Virus record (IMG/VR): IMGVR_UViG_3300033141_003288
Location: 1-20,324 of that record
Origin: a virus
Direction: 5' to 3' (one strand)
Length of the DNA: 20,324 bases
The notes beneath the pieces were generated by a model. The model saw nothing but the letters and a program-made list of their open reading frames with translations. It made no database searches and was not told where the DNA came from. The position numbers were made by a program, and so were the translations under genes. Below are positions 11,560-20,293 of this stretch, one piece after another. Within the stretch, counting starts at the first letter, position 1; every line of letters starts with the position of its first letter.

Positions 11560-11636
11560 GACGCAAAATTTGGCGATTTTAGCCGCCTAAAACACCTTGC
11601 CGAATGATATTATACCTAAAAATAATTTTCTGCCCT
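11560..11636. repeat. 77-bp imperfect direct repeat, copy 1
   Basis: Shares with copy 2, in the same order and near-equal spacing, GACGCAAAAT, an AGCCnCCTAAAA block, CCGAAT, TATACCT and ATTTTCTGCCCT. A TTGCGTCA, inverted relative to the first block, follows about 35 bases later. Read on the minus strand the core is AGGGCAGAAAATT, six bases, AGGTATAAT, which resembles a -10 box. Confidence 0.7.
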
Positions 11637-11776
11637 AAAAACGCAAAGGCAAAACAGGTATATATTTATTGCGTCAATTCTCAAAGACCAGAACATCTAT
11701 GCAGGATAAGGGTAAATCTTGATGGATACACAAAACATCATTCCACCGCCTACGAACTCCTGCCCATATCCCACTA

Positions 11777-11852
11777 GACGCAAAATATAACTTTACAAGC
11801 CCCCTAAAATTTGCTCCGAATAGTTTTATACCTGTTTTCAATTTTCTGCCCT
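11777..11852. repeat. 77-bp imperfect direct repeat, copy 2
   Basis: Second copy, 217 bp to the right of copy 1, with the same blocks and again followed by an inverted TGCGTCA about 20 bases later. Minus-strand core AGGGCAGAAAATT, six bases, AGGTATAAA. A partial inverted copy (AAAACAGGTATA) lies between the two repeats. Confidence 0.7.
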
Positions 11853-13038: not shown

Positions 13039-13102
13039 ACTATATCTTGTGGTGTTTTACTTATTTTCGTCTTAAACACCACTATATTTTGTGGTATTGA
13101 CA
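13039..13102. promoter_or_regulatory. Duplicated operator-like sites
   Basis: ACTATATCTTGTGGTGTT (13039-13056) and ACTATATTTTGTGGTATT (13081-13098) match at 16 of 18 positions and start exactly 42 bases apart, four DNA turns. The second overlaps the -35 box of the rightward promoter at 13097. Inverted copies of the core lie at the leftward promoter: CTTGTGGTATT (minus strand, 13464-13454) and GATGTGGTATAA (minus, 13489-13478, overlapping its -10). This suggests one regulator acting on both promoters. Confidence 0.5.
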
Positions 13103-13126
13103 ATTTACGGTAACTTGTGCTATAAT
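13097..13126 (+). promoter_or_regulatory. Consensus sigma-70 promoter, rightward
   Basis: TTGACA (13097-13102), 18-base spacer, TATAAT (13121-13126). Transcription would start near 13133, exactly where a 9-bp perfect hairpin (GTTATGAAA ... TTTCATAAC) begins. Both hexamers are perfect. Confidence 0.75.
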
Positions 13127-13132
13127 ACTTTT

Positions 13133-13364
13133 GTTATGAAACATTTCCGATTTCATAACCAGTGTCATCTAACACGAGTTAATCACTTCTCGGCTACTGT
13201 GAACGTGCAGAGAAGGCAGGCAGGCAAGGGCGGAATTGACCGCTATAACTGCAAGATAGGGAGACAAAAAAGGGATGTTTTTCTTTTATCATCTCCCGCC
13301 TGCAAAGGTCCTCAGGCAACCTAACGGTTAATACCAAACACCGCAATGCCTGCCATTATTTTTT
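13133..13364 (+). ncRNA. Candidate structured RNA from the 13097 promoter
   Basis: No convincing protein is encoded. The predicted transcript has several complementary segments in nested order: GTTATGAAA/TTTCATAAC (13133-13141 with 13151-13159), GTGT/ACAC (13162-13165 with 13172-13175), CTTCTC/GAGAAG (13186-13191 with 13210-13215), GCGG/CCGC (13230-13233 with 13240-13243), GGGAGA/TCTCCC (13259-13264 with 13292-13297), and GCAGGC with GCCTGC (13298-13303). The GGCAGGCAGGCA run (13215-13226) can instead pair with TGCCTGCC (13347-13354), which is followed by ATTATTTTTT, a terminator-like end. It may be a small regulatory RNA or the 5' leader of the early operon. The individual short stems are not significant alone. 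Confidence 0.4.
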
Positions 13365-13423
13365 CGTATAAGAAATATCCCTTATTAGTCTTGCTGTGTC
13401 TTTAAGAGAATAAGAGAAAGAAT

Positions 13424-13642: not shown

Positions 13643-13671
13643 TTGACATTTCTAAAGACATTGACTATAAT
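13643..13671 (+). promoter_or_regulatory. Consensus sigma-70 promoter of HNH cassette 1
   Basis: TTGACA (13643-13648), 17-base spacer, TATAAT (13666-13671), start near 13678. It is the first promoter of the continuous plus-strand early block and the first of three promoter-leader-HNH cassettes. Confidence 0.8.
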
Positions 13672-13677
13672 CAGAGT

Positions 13678-13801
13678 GCAATGAAAAAGAGCATAGCAAA
13701 AATTGGAATTGCAAAGCCACTGGAAATGACCAGTGGTATTTTTATGTCTAATTGCCTGCGGGTGCTATGCTCCGAATTCCAAGCCCGCAGGCTTTTATTT
13801 T
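13678..13801 (+). promoter_or_regulatory. HNH-associated leader RNA, copy 1
   Basis: Segment A GAGCATAGCA (13689-13698) is perfectly complementary to A' TGCTATGCTC (13763-13772). Segment B TTGGAATT (13703-13710) is complementary to B' AATTCCAA (13775-13782). Both A' and B' fill the 21-base loop of the terminator hairpin at 13754-13792, and because A precedes B and A' precedes B', the two pairings cross and cannot both be simple nested helices. Between them is a separate 7-bp hairpin, CCACTGG/CCAGTGG (13717-13723 with 13730-13736). If transcription stops at the terminator the product is a ~124-base RNA; read-through enters the decayed HNH gene. Confidence 0.6.
13754..13801 (+). terminator. Intrinsic terminator before HNH remnant
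   Basis: GCCTGCGGG (13754-13762) and CCCGCAGGC (13784-13792) form a perfect 9-bp GC-rich stem followed by TTTTATTTT. The start codon of the HNH remnant lies at 13803, directly after the T-run. Confidence 0.75.
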
Positions 13802-13802
13802 A

Positions 13803-14031
13803 ATGCCATATAAAAATAAAGAAAAACTAATTGAATTCGGAAAAAGAACTTTTGAAAACAACAGGACAAGGTTTAACGGTTGAGCATATTATACCTCTTT
13901 CAAAGGGTGGCACAAATTATATAGACAATATCGTTCCTGCGTGTAGATTTTGTAATCTAAGTAAAAATAATAGAATTTGGATGCATCAACAGCAAGAGTT
14001 TCGTTTTATGACAGAGGAGGAGGACCAATGA
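13803..14031 (+). pseudogene. Decayed HNH endonuclease (cassette 1)
   Basis: The ATG at 13803, in the same place after the terminator as in the other two cassettes, opens a frame (MPYKNKEKLIEFGKRTFENN) that stops at 13883. An overlapping frame from about 13862 gives TVEHIIPLSKGGTNYIDNIV and onwards to IWMHQQQ, closely matching the C-terminal half of the HNH protein at 19617-20207 (KDHIIPL, GGTNYIDNIVPACR, WMHQQ). The first CxxC pair and most of the N-terminal region are missing, so an internal deletion with frame change has removed half of the nuclease. The second CxxC and one catalytic-type His remain. A TTG at 13831 could start a 66-aa fragment. Its end overlaps the next ATG (ATGA). Confidence 0.7.
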
Positions 14032-16657: not shown

Positions 16658-17325
16658 TTGGAGAAATTATCAATGCAATCTGGCAACTACCTTGGTATAA
16701 AGTAATTGTAATTGCCTTTGTAGATGACATTATTTTCGTTTTGAAAACTTGGTGGTTATATTTAGTTCTTATTCTTATAATTATTATAGTCAGTATAAGA
16801 AAAAAAGAAGAAGGATTAGGAGGCAATATGACCAAGCAACAAGCCATCAGAGAAAGTATTGCCCACTGGGAGCGGATGATAGCGTGGGTAGAAAAGCAAC
16901 CGAAAATAGAAGAACCTGACAGAATTGAAATGGAATACCAGATAGGCGAAGATTGGTATGCTAAACATTGCCCACTCTGTAAACTTTATTATCGTGATGA
17001 GCTTTGCACAAATTGTCCGCTTAAAGCTGAATATGGAAAATGTGATAATGATGGTAGAAACGCTTGGCATTTAGTTTCCAGTTCACCAACTTGGGCTGAA
17101 TGGCTCAGGCACGCAAAAAAAATGTTAGAGCAGTTGAAATCGCTGGAGGAGAAGGGACTTGACAAAATGAGAAAGATTGTCTATAATAGTTTTAGACAAT
17201 CATCAGCCGAGATTATTACATCGTTTCTAATACGGGAAGTAAATTTAGATGAAAAAAGACAAATAGAGAAGTTGGAATGCGGTAAGAGCCCTACCGATTT
17301 TTTTATGGATACAACCTCCGAGTAG
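16654..17325 (+). CDS. Membrane-anchored zinc-site protein with cassette-derived tail
   Basis: 223 residues as one frame, with three parts. Residues ~15-48 hold two hydrophobic stretches (YKVIVIAFVDDIIFVL and WWLYLVLILIIIIVSI). From M59 (ATG at 16828, with AGGAGG just upstream) begins what looks like an independent soluble phage protein: TKQQAIRESIAHWERMIAWV, a four-cysteine zinc site (C106, C109, C118, C121), then TWAEWLRHAKKMLEQLKSLE. From about residue 168 onward the frame reads into the promoter and leader of HNH cassette 2, so the last ~55 residues are encoded by inserted regulatory DNA. Either two genes have fused, or translation also starts at 16828. The original end was probably near EEKG. 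Confidence 0.6.
   Translation: MIGEIINAIWQLPWYKVIVIAFVDDIIFVLKTWWLYLVLILIIIIVSIRKKEEGLGGNMTKQQAIRESIAHWERMIAWVEKQPKIEEPDRIEMEYQIGEDWYAKHCPLCKLYYRDELCTNCPLKAEYGKCDNDGRNAWHLVSSSPTWAEWLRHAKKMLEQLKSLEEKGLDKMRKIVYNSFRQSSAEIITSFLIREVNLDEKRQIEKLECGKSPTDFFMDTTSE
17159..17187 (+). promoter_or_regulatory. Consensus sigma-70 promoter of HNH cassette 2
   Basis: TTGACA (17159-17164), 17-base spacer, TATAAT (17182-17187), start near 17194. The 14 bases GGGACTTGACAAAA and the following TG are identical to cassette 3. A perfect dyad, GATTGTCTA (17175-17183) with TAGACAATC (17193-17201), covers the -10 box and start site and could be a repressor site. Confidence 0.75.
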
Positions 17326-17356
17326 GGTGGGGCTCTCACCCGAAAGGAGGTTTTTT
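17194..17356 (+). promoter_or_regulatory. HNH-associated leader RNA, copy 2
   Basis: After ~90 bases unlike copy 3, the leader aligns with it from about 17284: AGAGCCC (17285-17291), segment A, is complementary to GGGCTCT (17330-17336) in the terminator loop. Between them lies a T-rich weak hairpin at the same place as in copy 3. The terminator loop is closed by an inner GGGT/ACCC stem, where copy 3 has GGGG/CCCC. The upstream 223-aa frame stops at 17323-17325, so a ribosome finishing there would sit on the 5' arm and open the hairpin. Confidence 0.6.
17313..17356 (+). terminator. Terminator carrying the HNH ribosome binding site, copy 2
   Basis: AACCTCC (17313-17319) pairs with GGAGGTT (17346-17352), with inner stem GGGT (17325-17328) to ACCC (17338-17341), followed by a T-run to 17356. 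The 3' arm AGGAGG is the ribosome binding site for the ATG at 17360, so the same hairpin would stop transcription and hide the translation start. Confidence 0.7.
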
Positions 17357-17359
17357 ATT

Positions 17360-17950
17360 ATGGAAAACAGCAAAGAATTTTTAGAGAAGTTAGAAAATTT
17401 TATGAAGGGAAGTAAGCATTTTGCTGGTTTAACAATGATAGGATGTTACACTTTAAGCATAAAAGATTTTTTAGCCGCATTAGAATACTATATAGAAACA
17501 GGAAAAAATGTCTTGGATGAACACGCAGAAATAACGTGGGCAGGATGGAAAGACTATAATAAGCATTCAGATTACCGAATATCAAAATATACAAATAGGA
17601 AAATTGCAAAATTACAAAAACTCTTTAATAATAAAGGATTTTGGAATGTTTATTCTTTTTATCCAGAGAAAAAAATTAAGGAAATACGTGATTATCTTGC
17701 TTGGTGTAAAATAGAAAATCAAAAATTGGAAAGTTACCCAATGAAAAGATATAGGGCTTCTCTTTATACTTCACGTTCAGATATAAGAAAGAAAATCTTT
17801 GAACGAGATGGTAGGGTATGCAGATATTGCGGTTCTACTGAAAATCTCACTCTTGACCATATCATTCCTGTCAAAGATGGTGGGAAAAATACATTGGATA
17901 ATCTACAAGTTTTATGTCGTTCCTGTAATGCAAAGAGAAACAAGAAATGA
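17360..17950 (+). CDS. HNH homing endonuclease (cassette 2)
   Basis: 196 residues from the ATG 9 bases after AGGAGG; upstream codons in frame are part of the leader hairpin. The C-terminal ~50 residues are a complete HNH domain: C154-x2-C157, the catalytic LTLDHIIP (D166, H167), GGKNTLDNLQVLC with N181, and C186-x2-C189 followed by N190. Residues 1-130 are an unrelated helical domain (LEKLENFMKGSKHFAGL, YYIETGKNVLDEHAEITWAG) that I do not recognise and that may set target specificity. Free-standing HNH enzymes in phages are usually homing endonucleases that nick or cut a related phage so the gene is copied in. Its stop overlaps the replication initiator ATG. Confidence 0.8.
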   Translation: MENSKEFLEKLENFMKGSKHFAGLTMIGCYTLSIKDFLAALEYYIETGKNVLDEHAEITWAGWKDYNKHSDYRISKYTNRKIAKLQKLFNNKGFWNVYSFYPEKKIKEIRDYLAWCKIENQKLESYPMKRYRASLYTSRSDIRKKIFERDGRVCRYCGSTENLTLDHIIPVKDGGKNTLDNLQVLCRSCNAKRNKK

Positions 17951-19462: not shown

Positions 19463-19492
19463 ATGAAATACCAAGTAGGTGAGGGGACTTGA
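19463..19492 (+). pseudogene. 5' stub of a gene interrupted by HNH cassette 3
   Basis: A strong GGGGAGG ribosome binding site and ATG open a frame MKYQVGE that ends after nine codons at a TGA formed by the cassette's conserved GGGACTTGACA start. A well-placed start with such an early stop is best explained by insertion. A likely continuation is the open segment after the HNH gene (20165-20293). Confidence 0.5.
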
Positions 19493-19517
19493 CAAAATGG
19501 ATAATATCCTCTATAAT
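19489..19517 (+). promoter_or_regulatory. Consensus sigma-70 promoter of HNH cassette 3
   Basis: TTGACA (19489-19494), 17-base spacer, TATAAT (19512-19517), start near 19524. It shares GGGACTTGACAAAATG with cassette 2, so the promoter is part of the mobile unit. Confidence 0.78.
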
Positions 19518-19523
19518 ATAAGT

Positions 19524-19616
19524 AATAGACAAGAGGGAAGAACAGCCCTTCCACTTTTTATTGGAAAAAATATCCTCCAAAGGGGTGGGCTGTTCGCCCC
19601 GATGGAGGATTTTTTT
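19524..19616 (+). promoter_or_regulatory. HNH-associated leader RNA, copy 3
   Basis: Segment A GAACAGCCC (19540-19548) is perfectly complementary to A' GGGCTGTTC (19587-19595), which lies in the terminator loop. A 5-bp hairpin TTCCA/TGGAA (19549-19553 with 19562-19566) sits between A and the terminator. The leader is ~93 bases and has no stop codon in the HNH frame. Compared with copy 2, both the A/A' helix and the terminator stem differ at paired positions while staying complementary. Confidence 0.65.
19572..19616 (+). terminator. Terminator carrying the HNH ribosome binding site, copy 3
   Basis: ATCCTCC (19572-19578) pairs with GGAGGAT (19604-19610), inner stem GGGG (19582-19585) to CCCC (19597-19600), then seven T residues to 19616 and the ATG at 19617. 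GGAGG in the 3' arm is the only ribosome binding site, 8 bases before the ATG. Confidence 0.75.
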
Positions 19617-20207
19617 ATGTGGACAAAAGAGAAAAAAAGAGAATATGATAAGAAATATTATAGACTACATATTGAGAAAATAAAAAATCGTCATAAAGAA
19701 TGGTATAGAAAAAATTTCGAGAAAGAAAGAGAAAAGAAAAAGAAATATAGAAAATTATATCCTGAAAAAATAAAGAAATATACGAAAAAACATTATAAAG
19801 AATATTGTGAGGAAATAAAAAAACGAAATAAAAAGTATCACGAAAAACATTCTGAACAGATTAAAAAATATATGAGAAAGTGGTATTGTGAGAATCCTGA
19901 TAAAAAACGATTATATTATATGACTCGTAGAGCAAGAAAACGAGGCGCAAAAGGTTCTTTTACTCTTGAGGAATGGCAAGCGAAATTAAAGGAATATCAT
20001 TACCGTTGTGCTTATTGCGGAAAAACGCAAGCACAACACATCAGAGAAACGGGACAAAAACTACATAAAGACCATATTATTCCACTCAAAATGGGCGGAA
20101 CAAATTATATAGATAATATTGTGCCTGCCTGTCGTAGTTGTAATTCAAGAAAACATACTTCTGTATGGATGCATCAGCAAAAGAATTCCACTTTAATAAA
20201 AAAGTAG
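19617..20207 (+). CDS. HNH homing endonuclease with repetitive basic arm (cassette 3)
   Basis: 196 residues from the ATG after the terminator T-run. Residues ~5-100 are a Lys/Tyr/Glu-rich array of loosely repeated ~13-residue units (such as YPEKIKKYTKKHYKEY and HSEQIKKYMRKWY), likely a helical DNA-binding arm. The HNH domain follows: C131-x2-C134, KDHIIPL with D152 and H153, GGTNYIDNIVPACR with N167, C172-x2-C175 and H180. Its C-terminal half matches the decayed copy at 13803-14031, so these two are relatives, while the 17360-17950 protein has a different N-terminus. It appears inserted in a small gene beginning at 19463. Confidence 0.8.
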   Translation: MWTKEKKREYDKKYYRLHIEKIKNRHKEWYRKNFEKEREKKKKYRKLYPEKIKKYTKKHYKEYCEEIKKRNKKYHEKHSEQIKKYMRKWYCENPDKKRLYYMTRRARKRGAKGSFTLEEWQAKLKEYHYRCAYCGKTQAQHIRETGQKLHKDHIIPLKMGGTNYIDNIVPACRSCNSRKHTSVWMHQQKNSTLIKK

Positions 20208-20293
20208 ACGGGAAGGAAGTTCCAGTTTCTGAAGTTTTTGGGAAATATTTGGATAGAATTCTGGAGTCTATTAAAACTGAAGGAGGCAAATAA
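20165..20293 (+). pseudogene. Probable 3' remnant of interrupted gene (or 42-aa gene)
   Basis: A frame overlapping the last 43 bases of the HNH gene continues to TAA at 20293 as FHFNKKVDGKEVPVSEVFGK then YLDRILESIKTEGGK. The region after the HNH stop looks truly coding, yet the only in-frame ATG lies inside the HNH gene with no ribosome binding site. I read it as the tail of the gene starting MKYQVGE at 19463. If so, the cassette replaced or split it near FHFN/KKVDG. It could alternatively be a small overlapping gene. Confidence 0.45.

Follow-up and report, generated by a model that had tools for sequence, protein, structure and literature searches.

A homing endonuclease has to be made in amounts sufficient for its spread and yet small enough to spare the host phage, and the controls known for such enzymes are hairpins over the ribosome binding site (RBS), late promoters and autorepression. 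The phage record IMGVR_UViG_3300033141_003288, an IMG/VR virus, carries three HNH genes, each preceded by a perfect σ70 promoter, and raises the question of what lies between such a promoter and the gene that it would drive. We address this question for the whole 20,324-base stretch of the record, referred to below as the window. An initial annotation had read the DNA in front of one of these genes as a mobile RNA switch or attenuator that silences the endonuclease. The terminator-like structure that holds the Shine–Dalgarno (SD) site and the covariation in its stems and in the complementary segments A and A′ stand, whereas its mobility is not supported.

Genomic context

The minus strand of the window carries the structural genes, and a rightward replication operon runs from about 13.6 kb to the window end. 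This operon holds all three HNH genes, namely a broken gene 1 (13803–14031), gene 2 (17360–17950) and gene 3 (19617–20207), whose leaders we call copies 1, 2 and 3. The promoter ahead of each is a 12/12 match (3/3 genes), and of the five perfect σ70 promoters detected in the region from 11.0 to 20.3 kb, three precede HNH genes. The encoded proteins are small, and Pfam recognises nothing in them apart from the HNH domain. The nearest GenBank relative of the phage is not close (terminase 35%, Manatee Spring phages); a portal protein query returned no host or prophage relatives, and a terminase query returned no relatives in about 600 genome searches within one phylum, sampled in two overlapping draws.

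Taken alone, the promoter (GACTTGACAAAAT..TATAAT) follows a generic consensus that many viral contigs share, and it is not diagnostic. A reading in which the promoter is the mobile unit was rejected, as the sequence common to the copies is this generic consensus.

Two further regions of the window deserve mention in their own right. At 13097–13400 (+ strand), a perfect promoter with an extended −10 element stands before about 270 nt that fold well (z −2.7) and hold no convincing gene; no Rfam match was found there, and the region is possibly a noncoding RNA. At 11560–11852, in a 600-base gap between leftward genes, lies an imperfect direct repeat with a spacing of about 217 that holds AGGGCAGAAAATT..AGGTATAA twice; these repeats may be operators or promoters.

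Architecture of the leaders of genes 2 and 3

The features of copy 3 and its gene are as follows.

19489–19517, + strand: σ70 promoter, TTGACA-17-TATAAT, 12/12 match
19536–19552, + strand: hairpin 1 (hp1), GGAAG-AACAGCC-CTTCC, with a T-run at 19555–19559; terminator-like by scan
19541–19547, + strand: loop A, AACAGCC, complement of loop A′
19572–19610, + strand: hairpin 2 (hp2), ATCCTCCA / GGGGTG-GGCTGTT-CGCCCC / TGGAGGAT, then a T-run; its 3′ arm is the SD
19588–19594, + strand: loop A′, GGCTGTT
19604–19608, + strand: SD of HNH gene 3, GGAGG, within the 3′ arm of hp2, 8 nt before the ATG at 19617
19617–20207, + strand: HNH endonuclease gene 3, 196 aa, Pfam HNH 8.4e-14

Those of copy 2 are the following.

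16829–17325, + strand: upstream ORF running through the leader; mechanical frame open from 16654, TAG at 17323–17325 inside hp2
17159–17187, + strand: σ70 promoter, 12/12 match
17280–17296, + strand: hp1, CGGTA-AGAGCCC-TACCG, then a T-run
17313–17352, + strand: hp2, AACCTCC / GGGTG-GGGCTCT-CACCC / GGAGGTT
17360–17950, + strand: HNH endonuclease gene 2, 196 aa, Pfam HNH 2e-15

Both leaders share one layout, in which the promoter is followed by hp1 (5 bp, 7-nt loop) with its T-run, 16–19 nt, hp2, a second T-run and the ATG. Within hp2, an outer stem of 7–8 bp, an internal loop and an inner stem of 5–6 bp carry a 7-nt loop, and the outer 3′ arm is the SD (in copy 2, GGAGG at 17346–17350, 9 nt before the ATG at 17360). 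From the start of hp1 to the last base of the ATG, copy 2 measures 83 nt and copy 3 measures 84 nt. The initial annotation was right that copy 3 has a perfect promoter at 19489–19517, a 9-base complement to the terminator loop and a terminator 3′ arm that is the HNH ribosome binding site, and each of these has an equivalent in copy 2: the counterpart promoter at 17159–17187 is likewise 12/12, GGAGG lies in the hp2 3′ arm of both copies, and the A/A′ complement is exact in both (copy 3, GAACAGCCC 19540–19548 / GGGCTGTTC 19587–19595; copy 2, AGAGCCC 17285–17291 / GGGCTCT 17330–17336). This complement had been described as a loop pseudoknot. The complementarity is real, but hp1 had been overlooked; because A sits in a loop of 7 nt that caps a 5-bp hairpin of its own, the match is best read as a loop–loop, or kissing, contact, the loops of hp1 and hp2 being exact 7/7-nt complements in copies 2 and 3.

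The hp2 of each copy is a G+C-rich stem between promoter and gene with 6–7 U behind it and predicted energies of −21.8 and −25.3 kcal/mol (37 °C assumed, no pseudoknot term). The predicted pair probability of its outer stem is 0.99 in copy 2 and 1.0 in copy 3, where the stem pair probability of hp2 is also 1.0. In the window, a perfect promoter together with an SD-masking, terminator-like hairpin is found at 2/2 of these HNH starts and at 0/27 other ORFs.

To score the arrangement, we used a strict detector that demands a T-run and a pair of hairpins, each with a stem of 5 bp or more that includes 3 or more G-C pairs, whose loops hold a 7-nt complementary match. Exactly two sites in the window pass it, each at the start of an HNH gene, and the opposite strand has none; a site turned up in 0/600 dinucleotide-shuffled versions of the window and once in 2.17 Mb of other fetched loci. 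The detector was written after both sites were known and its settings fit them, which leaves the verdict unchanged because the margin is wide: the paired kissing-hairpin sites are not due to chance.

Gene 3 itself appears to be inserted into a small gene (19463–19492 and 20165–20293). Upstream of it, MKYQVGEGT* ends at a TGA within the −35 box, and behind it a frame ending FHFNKKVDGKEVPVSEVFGKYLDRILESIKTEGGK* is the apparent continuation of the interrupted gene, for which a homologue search found none.

Homology and covariation

Judged by their alignment, the leaders of copies 2 and 3 are homologous and paralogous. The alignment scores 21, against −20.8 ± 5.6 for shuffled sequences, of which 0/2000 do as well; the part before the SD alone also gives 0/2000, and the promoter regions, too, align better than shuffles. 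Furthermore, a covariance model built from copy 3 only (R1) finds copy 2 over its full length with 34.7 bits (E 1.6e-5).

The compensatory differences between the two copies that the initial annotation had quoted, in the stems and in A/A′, are correct, and the covariation check that it had called for came out positive, with both sides changed in 10 of the 26 pairs, including 4/7 in the kissing helix and 4/5 in hp1. The kissing helix is absent from the model that made the alignment, and yet 4/7 of its pairs are compensated. Paired cells amount to 98%, which 0/500 shuffles equal, whereas structures slid along the alignment reach 38–52%. These figures support selection on pairing in an RNA-level structure that precedes the HNH genes and encloses the SD in a terminator-like stem; covariation between two sequences is strong evidence for pairing and is silent on wider conservation.

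Outside the HNH domain, the alignment of the gene 2 and gene 3 proteins shows no relation, the N-termini included.

The divergent leader of the broken gene

Copy 1 stands at the head of the rightward operon and has these features.

13643–13671, + strand: σ70 promoter, 12/12 match
13681–13803, + strand: 40-codon open frame across the leader, ending in a TAA that overlaps the ATG of the HNH remnant (TAATG)
13689–13698, + strand: A, GAGCATAGCA, pairs with 13763–13772 in the hp2 loop, pair probability 0.74
13703–13710, + strand: B, TTGGAATT, complement of 13775–13782
13717–13736, + strand: hp1, CCACTGG-AAATGA-CCAGTGG, with a T-run
13754–13792, + strand: terminator-like hp2, GCCTGCGGG / CCCGCAGGC, whose 21-nt loop holds A′ and B′
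13803–14031, + strand: HNH gene remnant (gene 1), Pfam HNH 2.1e-11, gene 3-related (repeat D1, 75%)

Three leaders of one form had been proposed. Copies 2 and 3 do match, but the leader at 13643 has another layout, in which a 10-nt A/A′ and an 8-nt B/B′ reach into the 21-nt loop of a 9-bp terminator. Its similarity to copy 2 is weak (12/2000 shuffles as good), and there is none to copy 3 (391/2000). In the predicted folds, A–A′ pairing is best, with −41.2 versus −40.1 kcal/mol for the terminator fold, so that A/A′ may compete at nearly the same energy with the leader's own terminator, in an attenuator-like manner. Gene 1 is broken, with its start region and C-terminal half in another frame, and its promoter and leader are retained. 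Leader type is thus not tied to HNH type: copies 1 and 3 have the same HNH type behind different leaders, and copies 2 and 3 the same leader before proteins that are related in the HNH domain only.

Searches beyond the window

The statement that no described RNA has this form is borne out by Rfam 15, where no leader scored at or above the gathering score of any family; a riboswitch or other known RNA family was rejected on this ground. On the other hand, neither the expected linkage to HNH genes nor mobility was recovered. The arrangement is absent within 1.1 kb upstream of all 160 HNH loci searched (80 from GTDB genomes and 80 from IMG/VR; 0/160), and covariance models R1 and R2 find nothing in the other fetched loci or in 48 records. 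The leader is likewise absent from the HNH upstream regions of Lactococcus, Streptococcus, Shewanella and f2b1 phages and from the Manatee Spring phage with the best terminase match. Among 2.9 million viral contigs, a tight hp2 pattern gives three matches, all unrelated. A pattern for an SD in a terminator-like stem gives many matches in viral contigs, and none of those found stands before an HNH gene. With no relative in the 160 HNH loci or the viral pattern scans, general HNH linkage and movement between phages are not supported, and among the genomes searched the module is so far peculiar to one phage.

In several of the viral contigs scanned, a hairpin that masks the SD of a gene carries a TATAAT-like sequence in its loop, which suggests a T4-like, promoter-inside-hairpin logic in other phages.

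Proposed function and alternatives

From the observed sequence, homology, covariation and placement, we infer that copies 2 and 3 are probably paralogous, cis-acting leaders that hold down the HNH gene downstream. RNA polymerase coming from the local σ70 promoter or from the upstream operon would make hp1 and then hp2. As an intrinsic-terminator-like stem followed by U's, hp2 would end transcription and hide the HNH SD, and because its 3′ arm is that SD, one structure would serve to end transcription and to mask translation. In vivo, the complementary 7-nt loops would kiss and most likely lock the OFF state by adding stability. Against this silencing role stand the number of examples, two copies on one contig, and the different layout of copy 1. 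Furthermore, a terminator behind a strong promoter with replication genes downstream needs leakiness or conditionality, and no trigger was found. As for the triggers suggested earlier, a ligand is an unlikely one, since an unpaired core conserved between copies 2 and 3 is lacking and even the A/A′ code differs from one to the other. Control by a ribosome is possible, as each of the three leaders is crossed by an open frame, but the statistical case is weak: by shuffling, these frames are not unusual (P 0.22 for the 40-codon frame of copy 1), with the exception of the long one in copy 2 (P 0.03). This frame crosses hp1 and stops inside hp2, and a ribosome translating it would therefore open hp2.

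A broader proposal, which we put forward tentatively and hold to be somewhat less than an even bet, is that the leaders represent a new family of cis-acting kissing-loop attenuator RNAs, in which private complementary loops join termination to SD masking and silence homing endonuclease genes until a presumed trigger, either a ribosome or a phage factor, converts the kissing contact to an antiterminator. The A/A′ contact could spread by strand exchange into a longer A–A′ helix, and is a possible switch because this extended helix would open hp2 and free the SD. Taken by itself, the idea that A/A′ acts not as a lock but as an antiterminator (anti-sequestor) helix, with hp2 as the OFF state, the extended A–A′ helix as the exclusive ON state and the choice left to ribosome position, pausing or a factor, is conceivable but rather unlikely. 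In its favour, A–A′ extends into the hp2 5′ arm by 11 bp in copy 2 and by 12/13 in copy 3, A–A′ is the best predicted fold of copy 1, and the ON state lies nearer than chance, compared with shuffled upstream sequence, in copy 3 (8/300) and copy 1 (16/300). The ON fold of copy 2, however, has no excess stability (149/300), the extension pairs are formed in 8/10 cases with one broken per copy, and the terminator fold is favoured by about 4–6 kcal/mol in copies 2 and 3.

It is improbable that hp2 is an ordinary T4/Aeh1-type RBS-masking hairpin with a functionless loop complementarity: an SD in a stem before a homing endonuclease gene is already known (PMC2988022), and phage DNA is rich in T-run hairpins that mask an SD (at least 119 stretches), but complementary loops occur in both paralogues with the compensated pairs of kissing helix and hp1 given above, and shuffles yield no kissing site. 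Equally hard to credit, and if anything more so, is the view that promoter and terminator delimit a small noncoding RNA (about 95, 165 and 120 nt) and that the HNH SD does no more than overlap the terminator. All three copies do show a promoter and then tandem hairpins with T-runs, and copy 1 kept its leader despite a broken HNH gene; the optimal SD–ATG spacing argues otherwise, as do the structure of copies 2 and 3, which runs right up to the start of the HNH gene, the private A/A′ codes and the lack of a conserved single-stranded, trans-acting sequence. Finally, the inverted repeats would very improbably act as DNA, as operator half-sites through which the HNH protein regulates itself in the way that I-TevI does on its own promoter. 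Homing endonucleases can autorepress (PMC2988022), and the A/A′ sequence is specific to each copy; the stems, U-runs and SD placement, on the other hand, are RNA-like, the conserved part is hp2 while the variable part is compensated for pairing, and A/A′ lies downstream of the promoter and not over it.

Comparison with known systems

If the silencing role of copies 2 and 3 is correct, a strong σ70 promoter held silent by a kissing-loop terminator and SD mask would be a further solution to the control of homing endonucleases, and the leaders would be compact natural riboregulators whose A/A′ code is free to change while pairing is kept. Among known systems, HEARO, the omega RNA of IscB/IsrB, is also a structured RNA beside an HNH gene; the phage leader differs in having no Rfam match, small HNH proteins and a structured part of less than 100 nt. 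The put leader of HK022 is a cis-acting antitermination leader with a pair of stem-loops close behind a phage promoter, from which the phage leader is set apart, by description, in that hp2 is itself terminator-like and carries the SD. In the attenuators of copy-number and antisense systems such as ColE1 RNA I/II, pIP501 RNAIII and CopA/CopT, complementary loops of about 7 nt kiss and can proceed to an extended duplex that decides between a terminator and readthrough. Full complementarity between hairpin loops of this size is a shared feature, but both loops of the phage leader lie in one transcript, in cis, and a promoter scan showed no strong antisense promoter on the leaders.

The closest parallel is provided by T4 I-TevI/II/III, segB and Aeh1 mobE, in which the endonuclease SD is hidden in a hairpin on long early/middle transcripts, while transcripts from a nearby late promoter are too short for the hairpin and leave the SD free (PMC2988022). 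Common to these and to the leaders studied here, as predicted, is a homing endonuclease gene whose good SD, about 8 nt ahead of the start codon, lies in a stable stem (PMC2988022). The promoters at 17159 and 19489, on the other hand, lie upstream of the whole structure, and a promoter scan found no σ70-like site inside the structure of copies 2 and 3, although a late promoter of another type may exist. The stem of the phage leader is also terminator-like and is accompanied by a second hairpin with a complementary loop. By analogy, these leaders would work like the T4/Aeh1 RBS hairpins, with the kissing partner as the clear difference.
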